Source of the DNA: Anaerolineae bacterium CG2_30_57_67
GTDB lineage: Bacteria; Chloroflexota; Anaerolineae; Anaerolineales; Villigracilaceae
NCBI GenBank assembly: GCA_001872455.1
Contig: MNXJ01000052.1
Coordinates: forward strand, 1-54,685
Reading direction: 5' to 3'
DNA length: 54,685 nt
Part shown: in pieces, positions 10,927 to 24,955 of the stretch
Layout: each line of letters begins with the position of its first letter
Position numbering within the stretch: position 1 is the first letter of the stretch
The notes under the pieces: model-generated
What the model was told of the DNA's origin: nothing
The model's database searches: none
What the model saw: only the letters and a program-made list of their open reading frames with translations
Translations under genes and position numbers: made by a program

Positions 10927-13128
10927 CTATTTTTTGCGGGCAGCGCTCCAGAGTACGAGAAGCAAGAGCAACACCGTCAGCACAGAAAGCGTCACAATCG
11001 CCGGAAAAATCCAACTGGGGTGGGCAGAAGTCGGCGAAACAGCGGGCAGAGAGACGGTGGGCAGTTGTCCCGGCACAGCGGTGGCCGAAAGGTTGGTGCT
11101 GGTGACGCCAATGCGCGTATCGGTGGCAAGCACCTGCTGACGGTTGATAACCGCGTAATTGCCCGTCACCTTGCCGTGCAAAACCGGGTCGGTCATGGCG
11201 GTGAGTACCCAGCCCAGCCCTTCGGGCGTGCTTCCCAGAAAAGTGATGACCGTTTCGGCGGCGTTCCAGGGCGAGGAAAATATTTCGATGTAGCCCAGGC
11301 TGGCGTTTTCGGGTAGGCGATAGGTAACCGGCATACTGCGCTCCAGCGCCTGATTGGTGCCCGCCTCAAAAGGCGCGGGCATGGCATCCGCCATTTCGCT
11401 GACGAGCGGAATTTGCGCCGGTTGCCCGACAATCATCAACGATTTTTGACGAAATTCATCTGAAACAGCATCGGCGTAGGCCACTTGCGGAGCGAGAATT
11501 TTGCCAGTGGCGCGTCTGCCAAGATCCGCCATCAATTGCGAGGCGATGCTCCAACTGGCCGGGTCCGTAGCAGAAACGATCAGACCCATCCCATCCAGGC
11601 TGGGGGTGGAGGTAAAAGGGAATGGGTAAAGACTCAGGTTGAGCAGTTGAGTGGAAATGCCTGCCTCGGCAGGGATGAGCGGCAAATGCACCAGCGACGA
11701 GGCGTTGGCGGTAAACCACAACCCATTGGTGGCAAAATCGGAGCAGAAATTGGTCGGGCGCATGTCGGTCTGAATCACCAGTTTGTTATCGCCGGGGCGC
11801 AAGGCTTCGGGGTGCAACAAGATTTTCAGAACGTTGACCTGTTTGGCCGTGTCGGCAGTAAATTGAACACTGCCGATGCGCTGTTCGTTGAGAATGACAA
11901 CCAGCCCAGAATTGCCCAAATCCACCAGCGCGGAGTGGCTATACACCAGGTTGAGATACGGGTCAATGCCGGGAACCTGGCCGGGCGGCAGATAAAAACG
12001 ATATTCAAGCGAACTGACGCCGTAACCGGTGACGGTGCGGGTCGGATAGCCCAGGTCGCCAAAACTGCGGTCGGGTGCCACAGAAGTTGCCTGCGCCTGC
12101 GGATTGACCTGGCTGATGACAGCAAAGGAAGCGTCCGCGCCCGGCTGGACAATGCCAAAAGTGAGCGCTTGCGCGGCTTTGAGCGCCCCAACTTCATCTG
12201 CGCCGCCGATGTAGAGAATGGCACGCGCCGGGTTCCAGGGCGAGACCGCCATTTGAATAACGCCATCGCCAGCCTGAACGCCAGTAGCGGGCAGAATCAC
12301 CTGCGGCAGAGCTGCCAGCAACGCGGGTGTTCCCACCAGAATCAGATGCGCCTGGCTTTTCTGTTCCTCCGTCAGCGCCGAAACCGTCAATAGCGGCAAA
12401 ACCAGCCCGCCCTGCGACATGCGCCCGAAGGCGGCGGAAGTTGTCAGCGCGGCTTGCAATTCAGCAGCGCTTGGCTGATCTGCTGTCACCAGATAAACGG
12501 CTTCGGGCAAAAAGGAACTATCCTGATAAAAAGGCCGGGGCAAGGTTACCAGGTCAGCGGCGGGAGCAACCAGCGTGTGCGGCAATTCCAGAAACGAGTT
12601 GGAGCGCAAAATCAGGGTGGTTTCCTGGGGAAAACGACAGTCATACGCGGCATCCAAGAAGAAACGCAGGGTATGACGCCCATCAGAACGATGGGAAACC
12701 AGCGCTTCGGTGGAAATGGGAACAACAATCGTCTGCGCGCCCGCCTGGTTGATGAACAGCGTCGCTATCAACCTATCGTTGAGCGTAATTTCCAGCGCCG
12801 CGCCCGAACTGCGCTGATCAAGCGGCTCCTTGGCCGAAAAAGAAGCCTCGATACTAAGGGTCAGCGCCGCGCCCGGGCTAAGCTGCCAGGATGCAGGCGG
12901 CGTGTAACGCACCTCCGCCGAGTCAAACGGCCCGCGCATCACCAAATCTTTGGTGCCCAAGGCGACAAAGGGAATCACACCGCCCGCCAGGTCAGGTGCG
13001 GGAGTCTGGCTGAGTGTCGCGCTGGGCGTGGGCGTCACACTGGCTTGCGCCAGGCCGGGAGTGACATTCGCCGCCATCAGGCTGATGGCAATAACAATAA
13101 AAAGGCAAACGCTTAAGATTTTTTTCAT
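10927..13128 (-). CDS. BcsB-like membrane-anchored polysaccharide synthase subunit
   Basis: A 733-residue exported protein. The signal peptide is MKKILSVCLFIVIAISLM..., cleaved near GLAQA. A large extracytoplasmic part carries features of BcsB (cellulose synthase regulatory subunit): jelly-roll-like segments (ALEITLNDRLIATLFIN; LVIQTDMRP) alternating with flavodoxin-like segments. A C-terminal membrane helix (IFPAIVTLSVLTVLLLLLVLW) ends in ARKK. ATG 13128 is preceded by AAGGAG, which decides the start over two upstream ATGs. In BcsAB systems BcsB guides the nascent glucan across the membrane. No BcsA is present here; the only processive-looking GT2 nearby is at 14302-15492. It is the last gene of the exopolysaccharide run. 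Confidence 0.78.
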   Translation of the reverse strand: MKKILSVCLFIVIAISLMAANVTPGLAQASVTPTPSATLSQTPAPDLAGGVIPFVALGTKDLVMRGPFDSAEVRYTPPASWQLSPGAALTLSIEASFSAKEPLDQRSSGAALEITLNDRLIATLFINQAGAQTIVVPISTEALVSHRSDGRHTLRFFLDAAYDCRFPQETTLILRSNSFLELPHTLVAPAADLVTLPRPFYQDSSFLPEAVYLVTADQPSAAELQAALTTSAAFGRMSQGGLVLPLLTVSALTEEQKSQAHLILVGTPALLAALPQVILPATGVQAGDGVIQMAVSPWNPARAILYIGGADEVGALKAAQALTFGIVQPGADASFAVISQVNPQAQATSVAPDRSFGDLGYPTRTVTGYGVSSLEYRFYLPPGQVPGIDPYLNLVYSHSALVDLGNSGLVVILNEQRIGSVQFTADTAKQVNVLKILLHPEALRPGDNKLVIQTDMRPTNFCSDFATNGLWFTANASSLVHLPLIPAEAGISTQLLNLSLYPFPFTSTPSLDGMGLIVSATDPASWSIASQLMADLGRRATGKILAPQVAYADAVSDEFRQKSLMIVGQPAQIPLVSEMADAMPAPFEAGTNQALERSMPVTYRLPENASLGYIEIFSSPWNAAETVITFLGSTPEGLGWVLTAMTDPVLHGKVTGNYAVINRQQVLATDTRIGVTSTNLSATAVPGQLPTVSLPAVSPTSAHPSWIFPAIVTLSVLTVLLLLLVLWSAARKK

Positions 13129-13178
13129 TCTTCTCCTTTTCGTCATACGGCAGTTGCACCGCAAAGATTATGGTCGCA

Positions 13179-14309
13179 CTATAAAATGGTTTGTTCAATC
13201 ACCGGGCGCATGGCGGCGACCACCCGCTCCCAGGTGAAGAAAGTTTCGACGCGCCGGCGGCCTGCCTGCCCCATACGGGCGCGCAAATCCGGATCGCGGA
13301 ATAAACGTATCAACGCGGCGGCCAGCGCCTGCGGATTTTCGGGCGGCACCACCAGCCCGGTTTCCGCGCCGGTGATAATTTCGCTCATGGCATCATTCTG
13401 CACGCCAACACAGGGCAGGCCGCAGGCCATCGCTTCCAGCAAAACGTCGCCCCAGGTTTCCAGGCGCGAGGGCAACACAAAGACATCCGAGCTACAGTAC
13501 AAATTCAGAATCGGGCCGCGCTCCCAGGTGGGCGAAAGCACATCCACGCCGTCCACCGGCAGTTCCGCTGGAATGTGGTCGCCAGTCACCAGCGCCAGGC
13601 GCGCACCCGGAATTTGGCGGCGTACTTCGGCAAATGCCAGCAACAAAACGTCACCACCCTTGCGGATAAATTCCTTGCCAATGAAAAGGGCGATTGGCTC
13701 CTCGCTGGAACGAGGTCGCGCCGAAAGGTCGGGTAGCGCCGAAAAGTTAGCTCCGCCGCCGACAATGGATATCTTTTCGGGGGAAACAGCGTACCCGGCA
13801 ACCAGCGAGTCGCGCACCAACTGACTACGGACGAAAATATGCCGCGCGTGCTGATACGCCCTCGTTTCCATCTGCAGCCATTTTTCCCGGTGCACGGGCG
13901 AAAACGGCGAGCGCCCCGCTTCGGCGCGACAGGCCGATAACCGGGCGGTGTAATCGGTGTAAATCAGCGTTGGGACGGCGGATTGATAGAGCGCCGAGTC
14001 AAACACCGCGCCAAGTTGCAAGACCATATCGGGCTTTTCCTGCGCCACTTTCTGCGCCACACGCCGTGAGCGGGCTTCAAAGGTGTAGATATTCTTCCAA
14101 AAACGCTCACGCCAGACGTGACGGTTGGGGTGAAACACCAGCGCGGCATTGAACCAACGCGCCAGCCCGCGCAGGGAGGCGTCGAAAGGCGTTACCTGAG
14201 CGTAAGCAGAAAGCGCCTGTGCAAAGTAGCCATATTTCACCCTGGCGGTCATTTCCAGCGTCAGGTCACCCATCAGCGCCAGCAAAATGCGCGGAGCAAC
14301 ATTAGTCAT
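13179..14309 (-). CDS. GT4-family glycosyltransferase
   Basis: A 376-residue GT-B fold glycosyltransferase. Near the middle is the donor-site motif IGKEFIRKGGDVLLLAF, followed by the family-4 E-x7-E motif ETWGDVLLE, then ACGLPCVGV and the usual C-terminal helix. ATG 14309 is preceded by GGAG 6 bases upstream and overlaps the stop of the GT2 gene by 8 bases (ATGACTAA), so the two are translationally coupled. It adds a sugar to a lipid-linked repeat unit (inference); donor and acceptor are unknown. A gap of 50 bases separates it from the BcsB-like gene. Confidence 0.85.
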   Translation of the reverse strand: MTNVAPRILLALMGDLTLEMTARVKYGYFAQALSAYAQVTPFDASLRGLARWFNAALVFHPNRHVWRERFWKNIYTFEARSRRVAQKVAQEKPDMVLQLGAVFDSALYQSAVPTLIYTDYTARLSACRAEAGRSPFSPVHREKWLQMETRAYQHARHIFVRSQLVRDSLVAGYAVSPEKISIVGGGANFSALPDLSARPRSSEEPIALFIGKEFIRKGGDVLLLAFAEVRRQIPGARLALVTGDHIPAELPVDGVDVLSPTWERGPILNLYCSSDVFVLPSRLETWGDVLLEAMACGLPCVGVQNDAMSEIITGAETGLVVPPENPQALAAALIRLFRDPDLRARMGQAGRRRVETFFTWERVVAAMRPVIEQTIL

Positions 14310-15492
14310 GCGATTCTCCGCGACGTTGAGCGCGTTTCCATTGCGCGTTTTGCCCACGCGTGGCAAAACGCCAAAATCCGCGCAGGGCAGACAGGTTGCT
14401 GTTGACCAGAAACGATGTCAAATAAAACAATTTACCAACCTTGCCCCGCTCGCCGATAAAATTACCGAGCAAAGCCGCCAGGTAAAAAATTACCTGTGCG
14501 CCCAACGCCAGCCCATTCCAGGGAGCGGACAGCCACAACCAGGCCGGGGATGCGGCGGACGGCCAGATGACCGCCATCAGCGCCGAAACCAACGCCAGAA
14601 TCATAAAAAACGGCACCAGCGGGCGGGTGTATTTATGCGAAATCAGTTGCCAGAGCCAGAGTGGATGCTTGAACGGCAACATTTTGGCAGAGCGCGCCAT
14701 GGCCTGATAACGCCCGGCCACAATCCGCGCGCGGCGTTCTGATTCATCGCGCGCTGAAACAGAAACGCGCTCGAAAGATTGGGCCTGCGGCACATATACC
14801 ATGCGATAACCCTGACGAAAAACCTGGGTCATTAGAAAATAATCATCGTTGATGGTGTCACGCGGCGGCGCGACGTACAAACGGCGGCGCATGGCGTTGG
14901 CTTCGCCCGCCGCGCCGGTGGCACAGCCCAGGCGGGTTTCCTGCTTCTTCAGCCACGATTCATATTTCCAGTACGCGCCTTCCGAGTCGCCCAGCGCGCC
15001 GTCGCCTTCGATGACGTGTTTCGCGCCGCCAGTTGCGCCGACGCTGGCATCCTGAAAGGGCGCAACCAGCGCGCGCAAGGTATTGGGGCTGTACAGGTTG
15101 TTGGCGTCCGACATCAGCAAAATTTCACCGCGCGCTTTTTGCAGGGCATGGTCAATCGCGGCCATTTTTCCGCCGCGCTCCGGGCGGAAGGAGAGTTCGA
15201 CGCCGCGGTCGGAAAAACCAGCCACAAGCGCATCGGTGCCGTCATCCGAACCGTCGGCGGCCACCAGAATTTGCAGTTTTTCGCGCGGATAATCCAGCGA
15301 CAGGCTGTTTTCCAGTTTTTCGGCGATGACGGCTTTTTCGTTGTAGGCGGCAATCAAGAGTGTCACCGTCGGCGCGTAAGGCGGATAGGGCGCAGGGCCA
15401 GGTTTCAGGCGCGCCAACAAGGCCACAAGCCATGGGTAGAGGGCATAGGAATAAAGAATGAAGATGACGGAAAGCCAGAAGAGGATGCTCAT
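14302..15492 (-). CDS. GT2-family membrane glycosyltransferase
   Basis: A 396-residue inverting glycosyltransferase. It has one N-terminal membrane helix (residues about 2-25), a GT-A domain with LIAAYNEKAVI, AADGSDDGTD and the metal-binding SDAN, then NDDYFL in the acceptor-base position. It ends with RRARIVAGRYQ and three or four C-terminal membrane helices. The layout resembles IcaA/ExoO-like synthases, but the canonical QxxRW of processive synthases is not evident. It could be the transferase that partners the BcsB-like protein two genes on (inference). The leader in front of ATG 15492 lies in a dispersed inverted repeat. Confidence 0.85.
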   Translation of the reverse strand: MSILFWLSVIFILYSYALYPWLVALLARLKPGPAPYPPYAPTVTLLIAAYNEKAVIAEKLENSLSLDYPREKLQILVAADGSDDGTDALVAGFSDRGVELSFRPERGGKMAAIDHALQKARGEILLMSDANNLYSPNTLRALVAPFQDASVGATGGAKHVIEGDGALGDSEGAYWKYESWLKKQETRLGCATGAAGEANAMRRRLYVAPPRDTINDDYFLMTQVFRQGYRMVYVPQAQSFERVSVSARDESERRARIVAGRYQAMARSAKMLPFKHPLWLWQLISHKYTRPLVPFFMILALVSALMAVIWPSAASPAWLWLSAPWNGLALGAQVIFYLAALLGNFIGERGKVGKLFYLTSFLVNSNLSALRGFWRFATRGQNAQWKRAQRRGESHD

Positions 15493-15510
15493 GGGCGCAA
15501 AAACCTATCG

Positions 15511-15586
15511 AACACAAAGGTCGCAAAGGATCACAAAGAAATACTTTTCATCCATCAACCTTCGTATACTTGGCGTCCTTTGTGTT
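15511..15586. repeat. Dispersed inverted repeat covering the end of a GT4 gene
   Basis: Arms AACACAAAGGTCGCAAAG (15511-15528) and CTTGGCGTCCTTTGTGTT (15569-15586) pair at 16 of 18 positions. The sequence is of the cacaaagg...cctttgtg type seen as intergenic repeats in many bacteria. The right arm lies inside the 3' end of the GT4 gene and encodes its last residues (LNTKDAK...); the left arm lies in the leader of the GT2 gene. Confidence 0.65.
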
Positions 15587-16753
15587 TAAAGACTTTGTTA
15601 GAAGAGACTGATAGAGCGCCGCCAGTTGGTCGGCAGTTTGATACAGGGAATAACGCGCCACGATCGTTTCGCGCCCGGCCCGGCCAAGCGCCTGGCGCAG
15701 CGGCGAATTTGCCAGCGCAACTTCCAGCGCATTTTGCAGGGCGGGCAGGTCGTCGGGCGCAATCAGCAGGCCGTTTTGACCGTGCGCGATGACATCCGGC
15801 GCGCCGCCGACGGCGGTCGCCACAACCGCCAGCCCCGCCGCCAGCGCTTCGAGCATGGCATTGGAAAGGCCTTCGGTGGCAGAGGGCAGGACGAAAATAT
15901 CGGCGGCCTGCAAGTACGGGGCGACATCTTCGACCAAGCCGAGGAATGTCACGCCCGGCAGCGAATCCGCCGTTAAACGGGCCTTTTCTGGCCCATCGCC
16001 GAGAATCAGCAAGGCGGCGTCGGGAAATTGCTGACGGATGGCAGGCCAAATCGTCAGCAGGTGATTGACCCGCTTTTCGGCGACGAGACGCCCGGAATAA
16101 ATCACCAGCGCTCCAGTGGCGGGCAAGCCTAACCGGCGGCGCATCTCGCTTTGACGGGAATCAGACAACGGGGCGAATCTGGCAGTGTCAACCCCGTTGG
16201 GGATAAAAAATCGTTTGGCAGGCGCAACGCCCATTTGGGCGATTTCCTGTTCAATTTCGGCGCTGATGGTGATGAAAGCGTCAATTTGTTCACGCAAATT
16301 GTTCAGACGCCTTTGGCCGAAGGCGCGCCGGGTGAGTTTATCCACGTCGCCCAGCCGCCCGCCACGCAGTACTTTGGCCGCAACAGGAATTTTCCACCAG
16401 CGTTTGGCAATCAACGCGGCGGAAGCAGGCGAAAGCAGTTCAAAGGCATGAATGACATCCGGGCGTGAACGCGAAATTTGCCAGAGTGCGCCCGCGATGA
16501 AGGAAACCGCCGCGCCGGGCTTGGTGGGCAAAAGCGGAATGCGGTAAACAGGCGTGCCGTCCAACGTTTCGCTGGGGTTCATGCCGGGGTAGCGGCGGGT
16601 AATGATACTGGCTTGCACACCGTGCGCGCGCAGGAGCGGCAACAGGGCGGCAAGCTGCCGCTCTGCTCCGCCGACATGCGGCAGGTAAGCCTGAGTCAAC
16701 ATGGCAACACGGATCGTATTGACGGGATGAACAGGATAAATCGGATGATTCAT
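15548..16753 (-). CDS. GT4-family glycosyltransferase with repeat-derived ends
   Basis: A 401-residue GT-B enzyme. Core motifs: LTQAYLPHVGGAERQ (acceptor-side loop) near the start, SGRLVAEKRVNHLL, and the E-x7-E motif EGLSNAMLE followed by AAGLAVVATAVGGAPDV. ATG 16753 overlaps the previous stop by 4 bases (ATGA). Oddity: residues 2-12 (NHPIYPVHPVN) and the final 13 or so (NTKDAKYTKVDG) look like translated dispersed repeats rather than enzyme. The family core normally begins near IRVAML, so a start near 16699 is possible. It belongs to the exopolysaccharide operon. Confidence 0.85.
   Translation of the reverse strand: MNHPIYPVHPVNTIRVAMLTQAYLPHVGGAERQLAALLPLLRAHGVQASIITRRYPGMNPSETLDGTPVYRIPLLPTKPGAAVSFIAGALWQISRSRPDVIHAFELLSPASAALIAKRWWKIPVAAKVLRGGRLGDVDKLTRRAFGQRRLNNLREQIDAFITISAEIEQEIAQMGVAPAKRFFIPNGVDTARFAPLSDSRQSEMRRRLGLPATGALVIYSGRLVAEKRVNHLLTIWPAIRQQFPDAALLILGDGPEKARLTADSLPGVTFLGLVEDVAPYLQAADIFVLPSATEGLSNAMLEALAAGLAVVATAVGGAPDVIAHGQNGLLIAPDDLPALQNALEVALANSPLRQALGRAGRETIVARYSLYQTADQLAALYQSLLTKSLNTKDAKYTKVDG
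16717..16743. repeat. GATGAACAGGATAAAT-type dispersed repeat at a gene start
   Basis: The + strand reads GTATTGACGGGATGAACAGG then ATAAATC. This matches a short intergenic repeat type (attgac-gggatgaacaggataaatc) that I know from other bacterial genomes. Here it lies inside the first codons of the GT4 gene and is read in frame as PIYPVHPVN. This is recognition by memory and pattern, not by search. Confidence 0.45.
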
Positions 16754-17865
16754 TTGCCAATCATCTCGCAGTAGTAGTCAATGAAGGTTTGCGCCCAAGT
16801 GGCGGCGTTATAGTGTTCAGCCACACGCTGACGGGCGGCTTGCCCCAAACGTTGCATCAGAGACGGGTTTTCAAGCAGGACGCGCATGGCGTGGCTCAAC
16901 TCTTCGGGAGCGCGCGGCGCAACAAGCGTGCCGGTTTCACGGGTGACCATGTACGGAGCGTCGCCAACGTAAGTGGCAACAATCGGCAGGCCAGCGGCCA
17001 TACCTTCGAGCAGGGCCACCGACATGCCTTCCCAATGCGAGGCGCTGACATATAAATCGCTGGCGGTCAACAAGGGTGGAATATCCTGGCGCGCGCCGGT
17101 CAAGAAGACGCTCTCCCGCAGGCCAAGGCTTTCCACATGATCGCGCAAAACGGTCTCCATTTCGCCGCTGCCAACCAGCGCCAACGATGCGTCGGGAAAG
17201 TCGGGAAGCAGGGCGGCGAAAGCATCAATCAGGTCAGGGTAGCCTTTGGCGTGAGAAAGTCGCCCAACACTGATAATGAGTGGGCCGTTGCGTGCACCGA
17301 TAAGATCGCGGCGCGCCTGTTGGCGTTCTTCTGCTGTGGGGCGGGGCGGCAGGCTGACAGCGTTGGGAATGACGCGAACAGGGATTTTACCCACGCGCGG
17401 CGCGTGAAATTCGGCAATTGAATAGCCATTGACCAAAATTCCACGCGCCAGGAAACGCAAGGAAAGCGATTCGAGATGAAAGCGCAGGGGATTGTAATGA
17501 CGCGGGTCCACTGCCGCCGAACGGATGGAGGCGATGACCGGTATGCGCGCCAGCCGCCCAGCCATCGCGCCGAGGATGTTGGAATAGGTCAGGTACGTCT
17601 GCACCAGGTCAAAGTGGCCGTCGCGCAGTTTTTGCGCCAGCCGTTGTACGCGCGTAAAGTTCAGCAAACCGTGACCGGGGCAAAGGCAAACTTCCACGCC
17701 CATTTGACGTAGTTGCAGCAGAAAAACCGCGCTGGGGTCGGTATCGCTTTCGAGGCTGAAGATAACAACTTCCACGCCGTGCGCCAGCAGTTCACGGGTG
17801 AGAGCGGTCATCATCTTTTGCGCGCCGCCCCAATTGAGGGTGTCAATAATTTGGGCGATTTTCAT
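16750..17865 (-). CDS. GT4-family glycosyltransferase
   Basis: A 371-residue GT-B enzyme. It begins MKIAQIIDTLNWGGAQKMM, the glycine-rich loop typical of WcaL/RfaB-like transferases. Later come SVGRLSHAKGYPDLIDAF and the E-x7-E motif EGMSVALLE, then AAGLPIVAT. ATG 17865 overlaps the Wzx stop by 4 bases (ATGA), which fixes the start against a long upstream extension that is only the flippase gene read in another frame. It should transfer a sugar onto an undecaprenyl-linked intermediate (inference). Confidence 0.87.
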   Translation of the reverse strand: MKIAQIIDTLNWGGAQKMMTALTRELLAHGVEVVIFSLESDTDPSAVFLLQLRQMGVEVCLCPGHGLLNFTRVQRLAQKLRDGHFDLVQTYLTYSNILGAMAGRLARIPVIASIRSAAVDPRHYNPLRFHLESLSLRFLARGILVNGYSIAEFHAPRVGKIPVRVIPNAVSLPPRPTAEERQQARRDLIGARNGPLIISVGRLSHAKGYPDLIDAFAALLPDFPDASLALVGSGEMETVLRDHVESLGLRESVFLTGARQDIPPLLTASDLYVSASHWEGMSVALLEGMAAGLPIVATYVGDAPYMVTRETGTLVAPRAPEELSHAMRVLLENPSLMQRLGQAARQRVAEHYNAATWAQTFIDYYCEMIGK

Positions 17866-19319
17866 GCCCGCCTCCGTGCAACGAGCGCCAGTTGTTTGAT
17901 AGTCAACGTCAAATCCGGTTGCTGAAGCAGGAGCAAAGCAATGTAAACGAGGCCGCCTGTCAGCGTGAAAATAGTCAGTTGTAAGGCGGGCGGCCATCCG
18001 CCAGCAAAAACACTGATTCCCCAAACGGCCAGCGCCATACCAAGACCACTCAGCGCGGCGGGGCGCAAAGAGGCGAGAACCTCTGCAAAGCTCACACTGG
18101 CAATGCGCGCGGCAACGATGAGATTGAGCAGGCCGGAGAGGAAGGCGACCAGCGCGTGAGCATAACCAACAGCGCGAATGGTGACCATCACCGCGGCGGC
18201 ATAGTAAAGCGCGGGAGCGAGCAAAGCCAGTCGAATCAGCGCCAGACGGGTGAGAATATACGGCTGCCCAGTGGCTTTGTAAAGGCTGCCAGCGTTGTAA
18301 GCCAGCGAGAAAAACATGGCGTAGAGCGCAATCGCCTGAATGACGGGGATGGCATCCAGCCACTGAACAGCCAGGAAAGTACGCACAAACGGACCCGCCA
18401 CCAGCATCAGGCCGATGCCAAGGGCAATCGTTACCATCGAAACATAGCGCAGCGTGGTGAGAAATCCGCGCCCCAGCGAATCAGCCTGTTCGCGCATCTT
18501 GACGTAAATGGGAAAAAGCACCGAACTGACAGAGGTGGCAAACTGGGTGATGAGCAAATCCGGCAGGCGAAAAGCCAGGCTGTAAACGCCCAAGGCTTCG
18601 GTCCCGAGAAAATGACCGACGAAAAGAAAATCGAGATTTAGCAAAATGGAAGCCAGGCCATCCACAGCGACGACGCTTTTGCCAAAGGTCAGCAAACGCC
18701 GGGCAATGGCGCGGTCAAATTCCAGCGCAGGCCGCCATGGGAAAACGCCCCAATAGGCGATGACCGTCGCCAGCGTGCCAAGCAGTTGTCCCCACACCAG
18801 GCTCCAGAAGCCAAATCCGAGCAAAGCAAAGGCTACCGAAAAGACGCCTTTGGCGACGGCGCGGGCAAAATCTGGAATAAATCTGCGCCGGAATTGCAGG
18901 GCTTTGGTCAACAAATTGGCGTGGATGTTGCTAAGGGCTGTGATGGGGAAGGTGAACGCCAGCGCGCGTAAAACGGGGACGGCGCGCGGGTCTTTGAAGT
19001 AATAAGCCGTCAGCGGGGCAAGTAACCACGCAAAAACGCACAACGCCAACCCGACGGCCAGACCAATCCAAAAGGCGGTGCTGCCAGATTTGGGATTTTC
19101 GCGCTCATAGACCACCGCCGGGCCAATGCCAAGGTCGCTGAGCACATCCAGAAAGCCAATCACCACCAGCGCAAAACCTACCACGCCAAAATCTTCCTTT
19201 GTCAGCAGGTTGGCGAGAAGAATGGTGCTGAGAAAGACGATAAATTTTCCGCTGTAGTACGACGCATACGTCCACAGCGTGCCTTTGATGGCGGAATGAG
19301 CGTAAGAGGCGTTAGTCAT
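17862..19319 (-). CDS. wzx: Wzx-type polysaccharide flippase
   Basis: A 485-residue membrane protein with about 12-14 hydrophobic segments in the MATE/PST layout. It begins with GTLWTYASYYSGKFIVFLS and LLANLLTKEDFGVVGFALV, the usual start of oligosaccharide flippases. It moves the lipid-linked repeat unit across the membrane. ATG 19319 overlaps the Wzy stop by 8 bases (ATGACTAA), the same junction as at 14302-14309. A longer in-frame start exists but adds residues unlike the family. Next to Wzy and Wzz it completes the Wzx/Wzy pathway core. Confidence 0.87.
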   Translation of the reverse strand: MTNASYAHSAIKGTLWTYASYYSGKFIVFLSTILLANLLTKEDFGVVGFALVVIGFLDVLSDLGIGPAVVYERENPKSGSTAFWIGLAVGLALCVFAWLLAPLTAYYFKDPRAVPVLRALAFTFPITALSNIHANLLTKALQFRRRFIPDFARAVAKGVFSVAFALLGFGFWSLVWGQLLGTLATVIAYWGVFPWRPALEFDRAIARRLLTFGKSVVAVDGLASILLNLDFLFVGHFLGTEALGVYSLAFRLPDLLITQFATSVSSVLFPIYVKMREQADSLGRGFLTTLRYVSMVTIALGIGLMLVAGPFVRTFLAVQWLDAIPVIQAIALYAMFFSLAYNAGSLYKATGQPYILTRLALIRLALLAPALYYAAAVMVTIRAVGYAHALVAFLSGLLNLIVAARIASVSFAEVLASLRPAALSGLGMALAVWGISVFAGGWPPALQLTIFTLTGGLVYIALLLLQQPDLTLTIKQLALVARRRA

Positions 19320-20787
19320 TGCTGGCGCGGAAAAAATGGGATTCAGACAGGGTTTCGGCGAAAACAGGAAAAGCCAGCGCCAGACCAACCAAAATCCAGA
19401 AGGGGCGCGGATAGGCGCTGTTGATGAAGAGCGCCGAAGTGAGATAAACAGTCAGGCTGATAGTGGCGGCAACTGCCATGCTCATCATTTCGTGATTATG
19501 GAGGCGCTCAAAGGCGCGGCGCGCGCGCGCCAGACCTGCATACAGGTTGTAGATGAGAATGCCAAAAATGACAATGCCCAGCAAGCCCTGTTCGGAGGCG
19601 ATTTCAACGTACAGGCTGGCGGGAGAACGGTTCTCTGCGCGCGGGTCAATGCCAAGCTGACGTGAGTAACTCTGGTAGTAGACAGCATAGTTTTTGGAAC
19701 CAACGCCCAACAACGGATGGTCAAGAAACATCATCCAGCCGACCATCGCTTCACTGGCGCGCCCGCGGAAAGAGTATTCAGACTGGATGGCGTTGGGGTC
19801 GCCAAACAGGTTTGTCAGCGTGCCTAAACGGTCGGTGTACTGCGTTGGCGCAAAAGAAATCAGGGCCAACGCCAGCGTAGCCAGAATGATGTACGTTCCA
19901 AACTGGGTGCGCCGCCAGAGCATGAACAGCCCAACTGCCAGCGAAAGCGAGATAAAACCACTGCGCGAAAAAGTGAAGACAACGGTCAGTCCGGTCGCAA
20001 CCAGCGCCGCGCCCGCCAGAAATTTCATTATCAGGTTGCGTTCCGAAAGCATACGTTCCAGCGCCAGTGGAACAATCGCCACCATGATCTGCGCGTAAAC
20101 GTTAGGGCTACCGTAGGGGCCGCCGATGCGGTAGTCGCTGGTCTGGCCGACGATATTCATCAACACCGCCTGGGCAAAACCGCCGTAATTGTCAGCATAC
20201 GTGCCGGTCAGGTACTGGTAAACGCTCAACGCGCCCATAAAAAGCCCGGCGGCCATCAACGCCCAAAAAGTCCAGCGGAACATTTGCTTGCGTTGCACCA
20301 GCACGACCACGATGACTGCAATCAGGCCATCTTTGATGAAGTCGTCAAGGGCGTTGTAGCTACGGTCAAAATTGGTGGCATAGATGAGCGAGGTAAAAAC
20401 CATCACGCCCCACAGCATGACCAGAAAGAGCGCTCGTACCCATCCGCGCGGGGGTTGGCTGTAAAACAACCAGCGCAAGATAATCCCCACCAGCATCAAC
20501 CCAATGAAGATTTTGGCAATGGAAGGCGCGCCGTAAAATCTCACCAACACGTCGGAAAGGCGGATGAAGGTGATGAAAATTAACCCCAGCAGGCCGACCT
20601 CGGCGTTGAGCATGGAGGTCAGAGCAACCAACATGCCTAGCACCCCGGCAACCGCCCAAAGCGGCTTACCGAGCCAGACGACAGCAACGCCAATAAAACC
20701 GCCCAGGGTTGCGGCGGCCAAACCAAAGCCAAGAGAAATCCATGCGCTGGGGCTGAAGGACAGTCTGGCAAACATGAGACGGCTCAA
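19312..20787 (-). CDS. wzy: Wzy/O-antigen-ligase-type polysaccharide polymerase
   Basis: A 491-residue membrane protein with about 11-13 hydrophobic segments. The large external loop carries GHPLLGVGSKNYAVYYQ and, after it, SPASLYVEIASEQGLLGIV, matching the Wzy_C/RfaL region (H-N-x-Y-L...GLLG in the consensus; the histidine is not seen). It should polymerise repeat units outside the membrane. The TTG at 20787 overlaps the Wzz stop by 4 bases (TTGA) and I take it as the start; an ATG at 20775 is the alternative. Wzy and Wzz both end in xxASND. Confidence 0.82.
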   Translation of the reverse strand: MSRLMFARLSFSPSAWISLGFGLAAATLGGFIGVAVVWLGKPLWAVAGVLGMLVALTSMLNAEVGLLGLIFITFIRLSDVLVRFYGAPSIAKIFIGLMLVGIILRWLFYSQPPRGWVRALFLVMLWGVMVFTSLIYATNFDRSYNALDDFIKDGLIAVIVVVLVQRKQMFRWTFWALMAAGLFMGALSVYQYLTGTYADNYGGFAQAVLMNIVGQTSDYRIGGPYGSPNVYAQIMVAIVPLALERMLSERNLIMKFLAGAALVATGLTVVFTFSRSGFISLSLAVGLFMLWRRTQFGTYIILATLALALISFAPTQYTDRLGTLTNLFGDPNAIQSEYSFRGRASEAMVGWMMFLDHPLLGVGSKNYAVYYQSYSRQLGIDPRAENRSPASLYVEIASEQGLLGIVIFGILIYNLYAGLARARRAFERLHNHEMMSMAVAATISLTVYLTSALFINSAYPRPFWILVGLALAFPVFAETLSESHFFRASND

Positions 20788-21908
20788 TCGTTGGAAGCCC
20801 AGAAGGGGCTTTTCATTTGCCAGATGTAGACCGGCTTTTCTGGGTCGCGCCGCGCCTGGTCAAGAGCGCTCTGCGCCTGCGCCAGCAATTCTTCAGAGGC
20901 CAGGTCGTTACTGAAAACTGAACCGCCAATGTGTGGATCCATCGAAGCGGTCATGTTATAGCCTTCAATATCAGAGGGTTCGAGCAAAGCCTGATAAATA
21001 CGCTGAAAAGTACGTGCGGCGGCAGTGCCGGGCGTGGTGGGGAGCATGACAATGAAACTGGTCTCATTCCAGCGCCCAACGATGTCGTTACCACGCAATT
21101 CCTTGCGCAAAATTTCGGTCACCTTGCGAAGCAGGCGCTGCGAAGCAACCGGCGGCAGAGTTTCCAGCACTTCCTGCAAACCGCCCACATCTACAAGCCC
21201 CACCGATAGCAGGTCGTTAGGCTTGGAAGACAATTCCGCATCCAGCAACGTGCGGAAATAGCGGCTGTTGAAAACGCCGGTTTCACTATCCACGCGCAAG
21301 CGTTGGCGATAACTTTCCAATGGAATGCGCAATTGCTCGCTCAAAATTGCCAGCGCCGCGCCGCCTACCAGCCCAAGCCCCAGCGCCAGCGCCGCATCAC
21401 GGGCCGGTTGCGGCGTGTACGGCAAAGCGGCAGGCAAGGCCGGGTCAAGCACGCTGATATCATAAGAACTGTAAAACAGGCTGATGTAATCAATGGCGCG
21501 TTGACCGACACTGTTTGCCAACAAAGCCGCCACGACCGGGTCGGGGCCAGAGACGGTCAACTCCAAAATGGCGGCTTCCGGCAAAACGACAGTCGTCACG
21601 TCGTAATCTTTCACCGCCAGTGGGTCAATTTGGATATGTTGAAGGGTTTCCTGAAAAATACGGCGGCTGCTCATGAATTCAGCATAGGTGGAAAGAATGG
21701 AGCGCTTATCGAGCGCGGTCAGGCTGTTGACCAAATCTTTGCCGCTAACTTGTTCCAGATTGGGACTGACGATAAAACGAGCGCTGGAGGAATACAGCGG
21801 CGTCGTCAGGTAAGAACTAACCAGCGCGGCATTCAACGCCAGCAAAACTGTTAGAACAATAATCCACCAACTGCGGCGAAGCATTTCAACGTATAAGCGA
21901 ATTTCCAT
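20784..21908 (-). CDS. Wzz-type chain-length protein fused to a degenerate GGDEF domain
   Basis: A 374-residue fusion. Residues 1-190 are a short polysaccharide co-polymerase: membrane helix 14-34, an extracytoplasmic alpha/beta part with a chain of Wzz-like features (PLYSSSARFIVSP), and membrane helix 171-189. Residues about 205-362 are a cytoplasmic GGDEF-fold domain: DSETGVFNSRYF (normally D-x-LTGLxNRRxF), VDVGGLQEVLETL (normally D-x-D-x-FK), then RWNETSFIVMLP where active cyclases have R-x-GGDEFAVLLP. The signature is NETSF (281-285), so cyclase activity is very unlikely. The fold could bind a nucleotide or another protein. RBS AGAGGAG lies 6 bases before the ATG. It is the first gene after the interrupted hairpin and is coupled to Wzy. 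Confidence 0.82.
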   Translation of the reverse strand: MEIRLYVEMLRRSWWIIVLTVLLALNAALVSSYLTTPLYSSSARFIVSPNLEQVSGKDLVNSLTALDKRSILSTYAEFMSSRRIFQETLQHIQIDPLAVKDYDVTTVVLPEAAILELTVSGPDPVVAALLANSVGQRAIDYISLFYSSYDISVLDPALPAALPYTPQPARDAALALGLGLVGGAALAILSEQLRIPLESYRQRLRVDSETGVFNSRYFRTLLDAELSSKPNDLLSVGLVDVGGLQEVLETLPPVASQRLLRKVTEILRKELRGNDIVGRWNETSFIVMLPTTPGTAAARTFQRIYQALLEPSDIEGYNMTASMDPHIGGSVFSNDLASEELLAQAQSALDQARRDPEKPVYIWQMKSPFWASND

Positions 21909-21977: not shown

Positions 21978-22113
21978 CGTCCCGAAGGTTGGGGAGCCAA
22001 TAACGCTAGTACCGGAACTTTCCGATTTTGTAGGGTAAAAACGGCTAAATTGCGCCGTTTTTACCCTACATCTTTATAAAGTTCCGGCACTAGTTCTCAA
22101 AATCTTCGGGACG
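21978..22113. terminator. Terminator-like hairpin interrupted by a foldback element
   Basis: Outer arms CGTCCCGAAG (21978-21987) and CTTCGGGACG (22104-22113) are the same sequence as the intact terminator at 10875-10899, but here they are 116 bases apart with the foldback element at 22006-22093 between them. It lies between the GT4 gene ending at 22128 and the Wzz gene starting at 21908. Whether it still ends transcription is not clear; the nested hairpins could do so. Confidence 0.6.
22006..22093. mobile_element. Foldback (MITE-like) element with CTAG at both ends
   Basis: Arms: T(A/G)CCGGAACTTT at each end (one mismatch), a short unpaired part, then a perfect 16-bp stem GTAGGGTAAAAACGGC (22030-22045) with its complement (22054-22069) around an 8-base loop. 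CTAG stands directly outside both ends (22006-22009 and 22090-22093), as a 4-bp target duplication would. The element proper is 80 bp (22010-22089). No coding capacity. The size and structure fit a non-autonomous insertion element moved by a transposase elsewhere. Confidence 0.6.
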
Positions 22114-22127
22114 AGTACGGTTAAAAG

Positions 22128-23366
22128 TTACGCCTGTATTATAGACCTTACAGATTTGTTAAGCAATAGCAAAAGAAGACTAATATTATCCGAAATTCCA
22201 AATTCACGCAGAACCAGGTCGCGCCCGGCCTGCGCGCGGCGCGCGGCTTCTTCGGGGCGGTTGTACACATCGAGGAGAACATCGGCCAGGGCAGCCGCAT
22301 CACGCTGCGGGGTCAGCCAGCCGGTTTCGGCAGGACGCACCAATTCAGAAATGCCAGAAATATCGGAAGCAACTACCGGCAGAGCGCAGGCCAGCGCCTC
22401 CATCAACGAAACGGGGATGCCTTCCATTTTGCCAGAGGCAGTGATGATGCTGGGCTGAACATAACAATCAGATTCGGAGAGAATCTGCGCCACTGATTCT
22501 TGGGTTTGCGGCCCGGTGAGAATGACCTGCCCGGAGAGACCACTCGCGGCAATTTGTTTTTCCAACGCTGAAGCCAACTCGCCGCCGCCGATGATGCGGC
22601 ATCGGAAGTCCAATCCGCGCTGATGGAGCAAAGCGCAGGCTTCAATAAGATAACGCTGCCCCTTATAGGGCTGTAAACTGCCAATGCTGATAATTTCAAA
22701 ACGCCCGGATGGCTTTTTCTGCGCCGGTTGGTAGCGATCTGGCTGAATGCCGCAGTGAATAACATGCGTTTTCTCCAGCGTCCAGTCGCCCAAATGATGC
22801 ACCAAAAATTGGCGGTTGAATTGCGAAATGGCGACGACAAAAGCGGCATCGCGCACTTTGGCAGACAGCATGGCGCGGTCAACATAAATATCGTGGGCGT
22901 GAACGGTAAAACTATAGGGAATGCCTGTCAGGTGATGAATGAGCCAGGCAGTCAGCGCCGGATGCGTAGCGTAGTGCGCGTGAATGTGCTGAATACCTTC
23001 GGCCTGCATCTGCACAGCCATGCAAACAGTTTTGGGGAACAAGGCCAACGCGCGCGCCAAAAATTTTGGGCTGGTGAGATTGCCCCAAAATACCCGCCAA
23101 AGCAGTGCCGTGTAGCGCAGCGGATGTTTAAAAAAATACCGCCCGTTGGCGGCAAGAATTTCCAATGAAATCCAAGGCAAGCGATGGGCGCGCGTCAACC
23201 ATTTTTCTGCATCGGGATGAATGACGGTTTGTTTTTGAACAATAAGCGGATAAAGCGAAACTTGCAAGCCCTGTCTTTCCACTTCCATCATCTCCCGCAA
23301 AATAAATGTTTCAGGCAGATGAGGAAAGCGGGACATGATGTAGGCAATTTTTACTGGCATTCGCAT
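22128..23366 (-). CDS. GT4-family glycosyltransferase (WcaL-like)
   Basis: A 412-residue GT-B enzyme. It begins VKIAYIMSRFPHLPETFILREM, the start typical of colanic-acid WcaL-type transferases. It contains HAHYATHPALTAWLIHHLTGIPYSFT, SIGSLQPYKGQRYLIEA, and the E-x7-E motif EGIPVSLME followed by ACALPVVA. It lies 2 bases after the phosphoglycosyl transferase gene and is probably cotranscribed with it. The hairpin region after its stop separates it from the Wzz gene. Donor and linkage are unknown. Confidence 0.86.
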   Translation of the reverse strand: MRMPVKIAYIMSRFPHLPETFILREMMEVERQGLQVSLYPLIVQKQTVIHPDAEKWLTRAHRLPWISLEILAANGRYFFKHPLRYTALLWRVFWGNLTSPKFLARALALFPKTVCMAVQMQAEGIQHIHAHYATHPALTAWLIHHLTGIPYSFTVHAHDIYVDRAMLSAKVRDAAFVVAISQFNRQFLVHHLGDWTLEKTHVIHCGIQPDRYQPAQKKPSGRFEIISIGSLQPYKGQRYLIEACALLHQRGLDFRCRIIGGGELASALEKQIAASGLSGQVILTGPQTQESVAQILSESDCYVQPSIITASGKMEGIPVSLMEALACALPVVASDISGISELVRPAETGWLTPQRDAAALADVLLDVYNRPEEAARRAQAGRDLVLREFGISDNISLLLLLLNKSVRSIIQA

Positions 23367-23368
23367 TT

Positions 23369-24043
23369 TTAATGAGCGCCCCTTTGCTGAAACACGGCAA
23401 AAACAGTTTGAACGAGGATGTTGAAATCGAGCCAGAGACTGCGGCGCTCAATGTAGGCAATGTCGAGGCGCAGACGGTCATCAAATTCGAGCGAAGCGCG
23501 CCCGGCGATTTGCCACAAACCGGTCAATCCGGGGATGACATCCAGCCGCTCAGTATGCCAGAGTTTGTAGGTATCCGCGCCGAAGGAAGTCGGGCGCGGG
23601 CCGACCAGGCTCATTTCACCTTTAAAAACATTGAAAAGCTGGGGAATCTCGTCAAGACTGGTTTTGCGCAAAAATTTTCCAACGCGGGTGATGCGCGGGT
23701 CGTTGGTGATTTTAAAATCAGGCCATTGCAGTTCGTTCAGGTGGGCGTATTTTTTCTTCAGTTCTTCGGCGTTTGGCACCATGCTGCGAAATTTGTACAT
23801 AGCAAAACGCTTGCCGCCTTTGCCGGTGCGATATTGAATGAACATGACCGGCCCGCCGGGAGAGGTAATCCTAATCAGGGCGGCGATAACGCCAATGAGC
23901 GGAACCCAGCCAATGGCGCTCAGCGTCAAAATGGTCAGGTCGAAAATACGTTTCAAAACCAGATAGGAACGCCCAACAAAAATACGTTTTTTGGGGTCGA
24001 ATTTACGCGCCCAGGTATAACCAAAATTAGCAGCAGAACTCAT
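23369..24043 (-). CDS. Monotopic phosphoglycosyl transferase initiating polysaccharide synthesis
   Basis: A 224-residue enzyme of the PglC/WcaJ-core family. One reentrant hydrophobic segment (RIFDLTILTLSAIGWVPLIGV) is followed by the catalytic region: YKFRSMVPNAEE, then TSLDEIPQLFNVFKGEMSLVGPRP with the Asp-Glu pair, and PGLTGLWQIAGR. It transfers a sugar-1-phosphate to undecaprenyl phosphate and so starts each repeat unit. It is the short form without the WcaJ N-terminal membrane domain. It is the second gene of the run, 38 bases after the GGDEF-like gene. Confidence 0.92.
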   Translation of the reverse strand: MSSAANFGYTWARKFDPKKRIFVGRSYLVLKRIFDLTILTLSAIGWVPLIGVIAALIRITSPGGPVMFIQYRTGKGGKRFAMYKFRSMVPNAEELKKKYAHLNELQWPDFKITNDPRITRVGKFLRKTSLDEIPQLFNVFKGEMSLVGPRPTSFGADTYKLWHTERLDVIPGLTGLWQIAGRASLEFDDRLRLDIAYIERRSLWLDFNILVQTVFAVFQQRGAH

Positions 24044-24081: not shown

Positions 24082-24894
24082 TTACAGCGTGGACAGGCCT
24101 TGTTTGGCCTTTTCAACCAGGTCTTCAAAAGTGAGCGCGTCTTCGGGAAAGGCCGCGACGCTCCAGGTTGTGTTTGCGCCCATAGTTTCGGCAATGGTGG
24201 CTTGAATGCGCTTCGCCATCAGCGCGGCGCTATCGCGCTCGGTTTCGGTGCACAGGACGATGAATTTGCCATCGTGGTCGCGCGTGATGACATCGGTCTC
24301 GCGGGCCTGCGCAGCGATAATTTGGCCGATACGAGCGTGAACAAATTGCCGAAGCATGTCTTCACGTAAGACGTGGTAAGCTTTTTGATTAACATCCGGC
24401 TCAATATTTTCGGGCGATACAATCACCAAGCTGAGCGGGCGGCTGTGACGGCGGGCGCGATTCATCTCCGTATCCACCGGACGGGTGGCGTTGGCAAGCT
24501 CAAGGGTGTGATTGGGGTAGGTGGAGGAAGCCAGCGCACTCATAATCGACTCAGAAGCAGCCATCTGCACGTTAAGCTGATACGCAATCCAGATGGCGAC
24601 TGCCAAAAAGACACCTTCCACAACGCTCACTTGCAAATACTCCATTCCTTGACGTAAAAGGTAAAAATAAGCAATAATGACAAAGATTGCGCCCCAGAAA
24701 AACATTAGAGTCCCAAAGTTCATCCAGCGCAAATTAGGCACAGTGACAGTAGTAATCACAGCCAAGACGATCAAAAAGTAAAAATGGGATGGAAAATAAA
24801 TAAACGACTTGTCACCAATTTTAATTTGCTCAAGAGCAAAGATAACCAGAATAAACATCAACAACAAGACAAAAGTTTTCTTTAATTCGTTCAC
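24082..24894 (-). CDS. Membrane protein with C-terminal degenerate GGDEF-like domain
   Basis: A 270-residue protein. Four membrane helices fill residues about 7-105; a linker follows, and residues about 135-268 have the GGDEF fold plan. EMNRARRHSRPLSLVIV is the usual first strand, ARETDVITRDHDGKFIVL stands at the signature (HDGKF in place of GGDEF), and TFEDLVEKAKQGL is the last helix. Catalytic residues are lost. The start is GTG 24894: AGGAG ends 5 bases before it, while the upstream in-frame GTG at 24909 has no ribosome-binding sequence. It heads the exopolysaccharide run under a good promoter, so a sensory or regulatory role in polymer production is a reasonable inference. Confidence 0.75.
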   Translation of the reverse strand: MNELKKTFVLLLMFILVIFALEQIKIGDKSFIYFPSHFYFLIVLAVITTVTVPNLRWMNFGTLMFFWGAIFVIIAYFYLLRQGMEYLQVSVVEGVFLAVAIWIAYQLNVQMAASESIMSALASSTYPNHTLELANATRPVDTEMNRARRHSRPLSLVIVSPENIEPDVNQKAYHVLREDMLRQFVHARIGQIIAAQARETDVITRDHDGKFIVLCTETERDSAALMAKRIQATIAETMGANTTWSVAAFPEDALTFEDLVEKAKQGLSTL

Positions 24895-24955
24895 CAAGGC
24901 TCCTGACACAACAAGGGCAAAAGAGAAGACTAACCCACAACATTAACATTCTATT

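Follow-up and report, generated by a model that had tools for sequence, protein, structure and literature searches.

In the Anaerolineae bacterium CG2_30_57_67, a Wzz-type polysaccharide co-polymerase (PCP), a protein that sets the length of exported sugar chains, carries a degenerate GGDEF domain where related proteins have a tyrosine kinase. This domain has lost its catalytic residues but has kept the RxxD inhibitory site (I-site) through which GGDEF proteins bind c-di-GMP, suggesting that the protein probably lets this signal steer sugar-chain export directly, although binding is inferred here from sequence and predicted structure. The gene lies in the window, by which we mean the whole stretch of DNA analysed (54,685 nucleotides, contig MNXJ01000052.1 of assembly GCA_001872455.1). 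The papers searched gave no description of this architecture.

The fusion gene is a single intact open reading frame with an ATG start and no internal stop, and hydropathy analysis places two membrane helices at residues 12-36 and 171-191, flanking the extracytoplasmic part. Pfam profiles match Wzz (PF02706) at residues 4-91 (E=3.4e-11, 43.7 bits against a cut-off of 25.5) and GGDEF (PF00990) at residues 206-356 (E=4.1e-15), both over the curated cut-offs. RWNETSF is found at residues 279-285, where active enzymes have RxGGDEF. An AlphaFold2 model built with an 81-row alignment (mean pLDDT 85.8) has a predicted GGDEF fold, which matches the solved PleD domains 1w25 and 2wb4 at Z 23.5-23.9 with an rmsd of 2.1-2.4 Å over 164-169 residues; because the Foldseek and VIA-align rows were dominated by the GGDEF part, the Wzz part of the model was hardly tested structurally. 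A set composed of the window protein and 80 relatives, which are 35-58% identical to it, was then examined, and 81 of 81 members match both families at E<=1e-3. The observation in the earlier note, that a Wzz protein is fused to a dead GGDEF domain, is therefore confirmed, and both conditions it had set for refutation, a model without a GGDEF fold or a sequencing error joining two genes, came out in its favour. What had escaped it were the intact RxxD (R272 and D275) just before the dead signature, the likely third ligand R303, and a second degenerate GGDEF protein with the same pattern encoded nearby (Table 1).

Table 1. Features of the polysaccharide cluster in the window
Position	Strand	Feature	Observations
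20784..21908	-	Wzz-GGDEF fusion, 374 aa	Wzz extracytoplasmic part between two membrane helices; helical stalk from the second helix into the degenerate GGDEF
21054..21095	-	Codons for residues 272-285 of the fusion, R-G-N-D-I-V-G-R-W-N-E-T-S-F	Intact I-site RxxD followed by the dead GGDEF signature
24082..24909	-	Second degenerate GGDEF protein, 275 aa	Four N-terminal membrane helices plus degenerate GGDEF; RETDVITRDHDGKF keeps RxxD (R203, D206), and R234
23369..24043	-	Small monotopic phosphoglycosyl (sugar-1-phosphate) transferase	PF02397, E=5e-63; priming step
22128..23366	-	GT4 glycosyltransferase	
19312..20787	-	Wzy_C / O-antigen-ligase-type polymerase	PF04932, E=4.5e-21; overlaps the fusion gene by 4 bp; neighbour +1 of the fusion in 42 loci
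17862..19388	-	Wzx-type flippase	PF13440, E=5.6e-70; true start probably downstream of the listed TTG
13179..17904	-	Block of three GT4 and one GT2 glycosyltransferase genes	
10927..13164	-	BcsB-like protein	PF03170, E=3.1e-46; the only one found in the genome

To determine which residues of the degenerate domain are maintained, the window protein was aligned with 15 homologues found by whole-protein search, revealing that R272, D275, R279 and R303 are invariant while residues 281-284 vary. In 23 members not chosen by motif, compared with 22 active-type GGDEF domains from the window's genome and relatives, R272 is kept in 23/23, D275 in 23/23 and R303 in 22/23, whereas the positions fixed in the active set (D240, D242, N248, H253 and G256, each 22/22) are scrambled; the window protein itself keeps D240 but not N248. 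Some of the scrambled positions, D240 and N248 among them, serve metal and substrate binding in active cyclases, and residual cyclase activity was rejected as unlikely on these grounds. The active-type domains were picked with a GG[DE]E[FL] pattern, so that their signature, but not their other positions, is fixed by construction. On a tree of the 23 members, R272, D275 and R279 show no changes and R303 one, while residues 281-284 show 10-13 and D240 12, against a median of 8 for 151 columns. In the full set of 81, R303 is lost in 5 and kept in 76. The retention of R272 and D275 in all 81 is partly by construction, since the scan for relatives used LRG[NR]Dx[VI]GRW as one of its two patterns and the best 80 of 103 were kept; we therefore rely on the sets of 16 and 23. 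Open reading frames of the search with the Wzz part were filtered for R..D...R before entering the set of 23, but no locus was lost, as 15 of 15 (L112-L125 and L129) passed and the same loci had been read without the filter. Two further relatives (L176 and L177) keep RxxD, although L177, which is divergent, has lost R279.

The position and spacing of these residues agree with known I-sites. RxxD lies five residues before the signature, and R272 and D275 align with the arginine and aspartate that are alanine in solved DgcR variants, one of which is titled 'I-site mutant'. The spacing from R272 to R303 is 31 residues, while in B. cereus PelD (R363/D366/R395) it is 32, and each alanine mutant of PelD lost detectable c-di-GMP binding (PMC7112168). 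RxxD is also common in active cyclases (R in 18/22, D in 21/22), so its presence alone is weak evidence, and the case rests on its retention after the active site decayed. As a control, 26 other GGDEF matches were read: 20 of the 24 non-family matches below 60 bits outside the window's genome together with two more (L151 and L152), of which 0 of 22 keep RxxD, and the four remaining, partial matches. Dead GGDEF domains need not keep RxxD, since 0 of 20 of a response-regulator-like type do, but this control is mixed: these 20 rows are one orthologous-looking type, two of the matches read (L165 and L175) look like other families, and, of the four partial domains, L184 is a gapped, otherwise active-looking domain without RxxD while L185, L186 and L187 are dead-looking and keep it. 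The full count is thus 3 of 26, which slightly lowered our confidence; either these three are receptors too or RxxD lingers for other reasons.

The second degenerate GGDEF protein shows the same pattern. In a set clustered by sequence rather than by motif, RxxD is kept in 39/39 and R234 in 36/39, and the priming transferase is the next gene called in 37 of 39 loci, as well as being present in the window. This protein is nevertheless missing from about half of the loci (present in 33 of 62 with at least 5 kb upstream). Of 45 loci with at least 9 kb on both sides of the fusion gene, 35 contain Wzx, 32 Wzy, 37 BcsB and 22 the second degenerate GGDEF protein. These cluster counts are somewhat low, because the crude gene caller used dropped the window's own transferase gene in favour of an overlapping spurious frame and missed one fusion gene (L085). 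The possibility that the second protein and the short transferase are a split form of the large WbaP-type transferase was considered, but transferases are mostly short with or without the second protein (169-264 aa with, 37 loci; 100-281 aa and one of 491 aa without, 11 loci), so length does not discriminate. Searches of the window for a known RNA such as a c-di-GMP riboswitch gave no Rfam match at the gathering threshold, an OPX/Wza export partner was not found in the genome (no PF02563 match), and 12 stretches matching a pattern in viral contigs encode no relative.

The interpretation offered in the earlier note, that the organism replaces the kinase part with a nucleotide- or protein-binding GGDEF fold, possibly controlling polymer length by c-di-GMP or a related ligand, is partly supported. 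The evidence supports a Wzz with a dead GGDEF fold where tyrosine-kinase PCPs carry the kinase. Solved Wzc chains match the family profile at positions 144-202, around the second membrane helix (E 6.4e-7 for the whole chain, though no single stretch passes 0.001 on its own). The cytoplasmic part of the fusion matches GGDEF, NCBIfam kinase models match only its Wzz region, and the genome contains one Wzz and no BY-kinase over the TIGR01007 cut-off (best 56.6 against 108.05 bits). The vague ligand of the note is sharpened to a specific I-site prediction, because RxxD and the third arginine are kept while the GTP-site residues are gone. Replacement of the kinase fits this genome but is not general, as three other genomes (G008, G031 and G125) hold both a Wzz-GGDEF and a longer Wzz protein of kinase size, judged only by the length of its open frame (632-665 aa), suggesting that the two can probably coexist. 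From the search with the Wzz part, 30 loci and six more rows of 335-458 aa were read, to the exclusion of the other listed and unlisted rows, and none of these six is a GGDEF fusion (kinase-like or lone Wzz by eye). The family is patchy, since none of the four same-genus genomes has a full-length homologue. As to the signal itself, searches of the genome found nine active-type GG[DE]E[FL] domains and seven HD-GYP domains, but no PilZ and no EAL.

Considering these results, we propose, with fair but not full confidence, a model where the protein is a co-polymerase whose catalytically dead GGDEF domain is kept as a c-di-GMP receptor through its I-site. In this model, PCP subunits form a ring round the Wzy polymerase, and c-di-GMP, probably as a dimer, binds R272, D275 and R303 and bridges or reorients the cytoplasmic domains of neighbouring subunits; the change would pass along the continuous helix formed by the second membrane segment and the stalk and set the assembly, and so the rate or length of polymerisation. 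c-di-GMP would then do the job that autophosphorylation of the tyrosine tail does in Wzc. The neighbouring four-helix protein would be a second receptor, probably acting on the priming transferase beside it, so that the signal would act at the first and last steps of one Wzx/Wzy pathway. The analysis establishes the fusion, the predicted fold, the loss of catalytic residues, the retention of the I-site and the conserved cluster, while c-di-GMP binding, ring formation, the direction of control, the effect on chain length and the action of the second protein on the transferase are inferred.

Other explanations are less likely. The dead GGDEF could be only a dimerisation or oligomerisation module of the PCP ring, without ligand, with RxxD kept for structure: GGDEF domains dimerise, and PCPs need a cytoplasmic assembly element, a part played in Wzc by the kinase and its tail (PMC8285477). 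However, the fixed residues are the ligand residues of known I-sites while most of the domain drifts, and the response-regulator-like type in the same genomes lost RxxD in 20 of 20 rows, though a small further type keeps it in 3 of 3. It is somewhat less likely still that the domain senses another ligand (cGAMP, c-di-AMP, GTP or ppGpp). RxxD alone does not prove specificity for c-di-GMP, and PleD has been solved with ppGpp or pppGpp as well as c-di-GMP (titles of 9g85 and 9g86), but the residues fixed in active GGDEFs, where GTP and metal bind, are scrambled here (D240, D242, N248, D257, GG281-282, K353), making a nucleotide in the old active site unlikely, and the genome encodes ample c-di-GMP enzymes. 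A third and doubtful possibility is that the domain is not the effector but recruits an active diguanylate cyclase by I-site or surface contact, giving a local c-di-GMP pool at the EPS machine. Degenerate GGDEF proteins can act as local signalling partners, and nine active-type domains are available, but this reading explains the invariance of the binding residues less directly, and no active-type cyclase was seen among the neighbour families present in 10 or more loci (one of which has no Pfam match). An assembly or sequencing artefact is refuted by the 81 of 81 aligned sequences, among them cultured strains, that carry both domains in one frame.

Comparison with described systems shows both precedents and differences. 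PelD, the c-di-GMP receptor of the Pel polysaccharide, is a dead GGDEF whose I-site RxxD plus a downstream arginine bind c-di-GMP and are needed for an exopolysaccharide-based biofilm (PMC7112168), and the second protein described here resembles it most. In contrast, PelD has a GAF domain before the GGDEF and serves a synthase-dependent pathway, whereas the fusion is a Wzz co-polymerase in a Wzx/Wzy cluster; at E<=1, no GAF match was found in either protein and no PelD model was among the Pfam matches. The tyrosine-kinase co-polymerases Wzc and CapAB (PCP-2) have the same Wzz module, two membrane helices and a cytoplasmic domain after the second, and 29 of 81 family members also match GNVR, 'G-rich domain on putative tyrosine kinase', but the fusion has a GGDEF domain instead of the kinase domain and tyrosine-rich tail. 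BcsE is a dead GGDEF that binds c-di-GMP by its I-site in a polysaccharide system (PMC8461298), but it is a partner of cellulose synthase rather than a co-polymerase. Alg44 uses PilZ and a synthase-dependent pathway and is not a Wzz protein. HfsK of Caulobacter is a c-di-GMP effector acting on the holdfast polysaccharide (PMC5362036), but is a soluble N-acetyltransferase-family protein that high c-di-GMP is proposed to inactivate; holdfast is a Wzx/Wzy product. Finally, EpsW-EpsZ of Myxococcus, in which a partner protein regulates a Wzx/Wzy pathway post-translationally at the priming transferase (PMC12802240), is a precedent for the second protein acting on its neighbour, although a response regulator and phosphorylation are used rather than c-di-GMP, and the transferase is large, not small.

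Direct c-di-GMP control is well described for synthase-type polysaccharides, while post-translational control of Wzx/Wzy pathways is called incompletely understood in a 2025 paper (PMC12802240). A co-polymerase with a built-in I-site would link the messenger directly to Wzx/Wzy polymerisation and would swap a tyrosine kinase for a second-messenger receptor on the same scaffold. More tentatively, this may represent a widespread kind of EPS control in one phylum, where, in Anaerolineae and Herpetosiphon, c-di-GMP takes the place of tyrosine phosphorylation as the direct, post-translational switch of a Wzx/Wzy machine, acting on priming through a four-helix dead GGDEF beside the phosphoglycosyl transferase and on polymer length through the Wzz fusion, with a BcsB-like partner borrowed from cellulose synthesis. 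In a genome where no PilZ and no EAL were found, these two proteins may be main readers of the signal. Cultured carriers of the fusion exist (Herpetosiphon aurantiacus, H. geysericola, Levilinea saccharolytica, Longilinea arvoryzae and Pelolinea submarina, from record titles), and the finding would give a molecular handle on matrix production in Anaerolineae and their kin.

The observation made in the earlier note, a Wzz chain-length protein fused to a dead GGDEF domain, was confirmed: an open reading frame without internal stops lies exactly where the note placed it, Pfam recognizes both domains above the curated cut-offs, two membrane helices flank the outside part, and the sequence RWNETSF stands at the signature position. 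The coordinates of the features considered here are collected in the following table.

Coordinates of the fusion protein, its domains and neighboring features (residue numbers refer to the fusion protein)
Feature	Position	Strand	Description
Wzz-GGDEF fusion gene	20784-21908	minus	374 aa from an ATG
Wzz domain	residues 4-91		Pfam, E 3.4e-11
First membrane helix	residues 12-36
Second membrane helix (TM2)	residues 171-191
TM2 and stalk	residues 168-205		one helix in the predicted model
GGDEF domain	residues 206-356		Pfam, E 4.1e-15
Gene of the putative second receptor	24082-24909		four N-terminal helices and a degenerate GGDEF; Pfam E 2.7e-5
Palindrome	22006-22093		88 bp, 40-nt arms, 83% complementary; between the GT4 and Wzz-GGDEF genes
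BcsB-like gene	10927-13164

To determine whether the fusion is real, 61 genomes were searched, and strong matches starting in the Wzz part (E below 1e-67) were found in 17 of them, counting the window's own, one of the 17 being cut by a contig end. A scan of one genome per species yielded 103 relatives, of which the best 80 were kept. Record titles name Chloroflexota for 77 of these 80, mainly Anaerolineae with Herpetosiphon as a second group, while the titles of the remaining three, which lie on contigs of limited length, name other phyla; these are contigs of 3.5, 6.4 and 23 kb that, we infer, may be mis-binned. All 81 aligned sequences match both Wzz and GGDEF. The distribution of the family is nevertheless patchy, as none of the four same-genus genomes has a full-length member.

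AlphaFold2 prediction on the 81-row alignment (mean pLDDT 85.8) placed TM2 and a stalk in a single helix running into a GGDEF domain. Comparison of the model with solved structures aligned PleD 1w25 and 2wb4 at Z 23.5-23.9, with an rmsd of 2.1-2.4 A over 164-169 residues. In sequence-profile searches, solved Wzc chains matched positions 144-202 of the family profile, around TM2, with an E of 6.4e-7 for the whole chain although no single stretch fell below 0.001. Given that the kinase follows TM2 in Wzc, the GGDEF domain stands where the kinase would. The interpretation offered in the earlier note, that a GGDEF fold replaces the kinase part and possibly controls polymer length through c-di-GMP or a related ligand, is therefore partly supported, with ligand binding and control of length remaining inferences.

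The main new result concerns which residues were lost and which were kept. We compared 23 members, none chosen by motif (16 from the whole-protein search, window included, and 15 from a search with the Wzz part alone, thinned at 90% identity), with 22 active-type GGDEF domains from the window's genome and relatives. Positions fixed or nearly fixed in the active set, which serve in metal or GTP binding, are scrambled in the family: D240, D242, N248, H253, G256, D257, the two glycines and the glutamate of the signature, D346 and K353. In contrast, the residues of the I-site are retained: R272 in 23 of 23, D275 in 23 of 23 and R303 in 22 of 23 members, compared with 18, 21 and 10 of 22 in the active set. 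On a tree of the 23 members, R272, D275 and R279 show no change and R303 shows one, while positions 281-284 show 10-13 changes each and D240 shows 12, against a median of 8 for 151 domain columns. On 80 distinct sequences, which come from a search biased in part by the motif and are used only as support, the corresponding numbers are 0, 0, 0 and 2 against 19-37, with a median of 20. R272 and D275 align with the R and D that are alanine in two solved DgcR variants, one of them titled 'I-site mutant'. In B. cereus PelD, three residues in the same places (R363, D366 and R395) were each needed for c-di-GMP binding and for biofilm (PMC7112168). In PleD numbering these residues are R359, D362 and R390.

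Other dead GGDEF domains were examined as a control. Of 22 other low-scoring PF00990 stretches from the window's genome and relatives, none keeps a contiguous RxxD; two look like unrelated families, while 20 (loci L151, L152 and L156-L174 without L165) are, by eye, of one response-regulator-like type, found across the relatives as proteins of about 300 aa with another dead GGDEF (for example GHAGGDNF), in which RxxD is replaced and preceded by an insertion. These data show that dead GGDEFs need not keep RxxD. However, of four partial matches left out of this set, three (L185, L186 and L187, small frames of about 150-200 aa in three relatives) are dead-looking GGDEFs that do keep RxxD, so that 3 of 26 retain it and the control is weaker than it first appeared; these proteins may be receptors too, or RxxD may linger for other reasons. 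Three divergent Wzz-GGDEF proteins (L129, L176 and L177; 28-30% identity) keep RxxD in 3 of 3 although their signatures are also dead, and two of their three genomes (G011 and G027 among the genomes searched) also hold the main type. Of six further mid-sized Wzz proteins, none is a GGDEF fusion.

A second degenerate GGDEF protein, a putative second receptor, is encoded nearby. Its predicted model has a pLDDT of 87.2 and matches GGDEF structures with Z up to 17.8. In 39 homologues, window included, that were grouped by sequence alone, R203 and D206 are present in 39 of 39 and R234 in 36 of 39, while the signature positions vary; E148, R153 and R154 are also invariant. Pfam recognizes GGDEF in 26 of the 39. 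The protein occurs in 33 of 62 loci with at least 5 kb upstream, and the priming transferase is the next called gene in 37 of 39; of the other two, the window does have it, hidden by a spurious ORF.

A common gene order is putative second receptor, priming transferase, GT4, Wzz-GGDEF, Wzy, Wzx, glycosyltransferases and BcsB, and the window has the full set. Of 45 loci with at least 9 kb on both sides, Wzx is found in 35, Wzy in 32, BcsB in 37 and the second receptor in 22. The BcsB-like gene, which would encode a cellulose-synthase subunit travelling with a Wzx/Wzy cluster, is the only one found in the window's genome; it is conserved in 56 of 81 Wzz-GGDEF loci, and in 34 loci of the whole set it directly follows the fusion gene. 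Other neighbor families seen in 10 or more loci, as judged from one representative each, are a polysaccharide deacetylase, a GT4, an APH-like protein, a methyltransferase-like protein and one without a Pfam match. The palindrome beside the fusion gene is present at 18 places in the genome, including this one, mostly at 93-99% identity and in one case partially, suggesting a REP- or MITE-like family.

The combination appears to be new, although its parts, a PCP and an I-site receptor, are known. Literature searches on Wzz or its domain with GGDEF or diguanylate cyclase, on degenerate GGDEF with an I-site and exopolysaccharide, on c-di-GMP in Chloroflexi, on c-di-GMP with Wzc/Wzy or with co-polymerases, and on transferases with degenerate GGDEF revealed no paper that appears, from its title and the start of its abstract and within open-access literature of which little was read beyond this, to describe this architecture, and a search on Anaerolineae with BcsB returned none. 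Three papers found on Wzz with GGDEF speak of separate proteins. Domain databases probably list the architecture, so that 'undescribed' means here not discussed as a system in the literature that could be searched. A 2021 review on c-di-GMP and biofilm polysaccharides does not contain the words Wzx, Wzz or Wzc, and a 2025 mBio paper states that post-translational control of Wzx/Wzy pathways is incompletely understood. HfsK is the nearest precedent found for a c-di-GMP effector acting on such a polymer.

The window's genome has one Wzz, no BY-kinase over the cut-off (best 56.6 of 108 bits) and no OPX exporter match. Of its 13 GGDEF places, nine have the GG[DE]E[FL] signature, seven of these with RxxD, and two of the four dead ones are the EPS pair. 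Searches of the genome revealed seven HD-GYP matches (PF13487), no EAL and no PilZ. These results indicate that c-di-GMP is very probably made and degraded in this organism, with turnover that seems to rest on HD-GYP only, and that two common signalling domains are missing. In Wzc, cycling between a dephosphorylated octamer, held by the tyrosine tail of one subunit in the kinase site of its neighbor, and phosphorylated monomers is proposed to govern polymerization (PMC8285477). While the fusion, the loss of the catalytic positions and the retention of the I-site residues rest on the sequence comparisons, the binding of c-di-GMP, the assembly of a ring, and whether the signal lengthens or shortens chains are inferred. 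We propose that c-di-GMP bound at the I-sites does the corresponding job here, and from PelD and Alg44 one would guess activation at high c-di-GMP.
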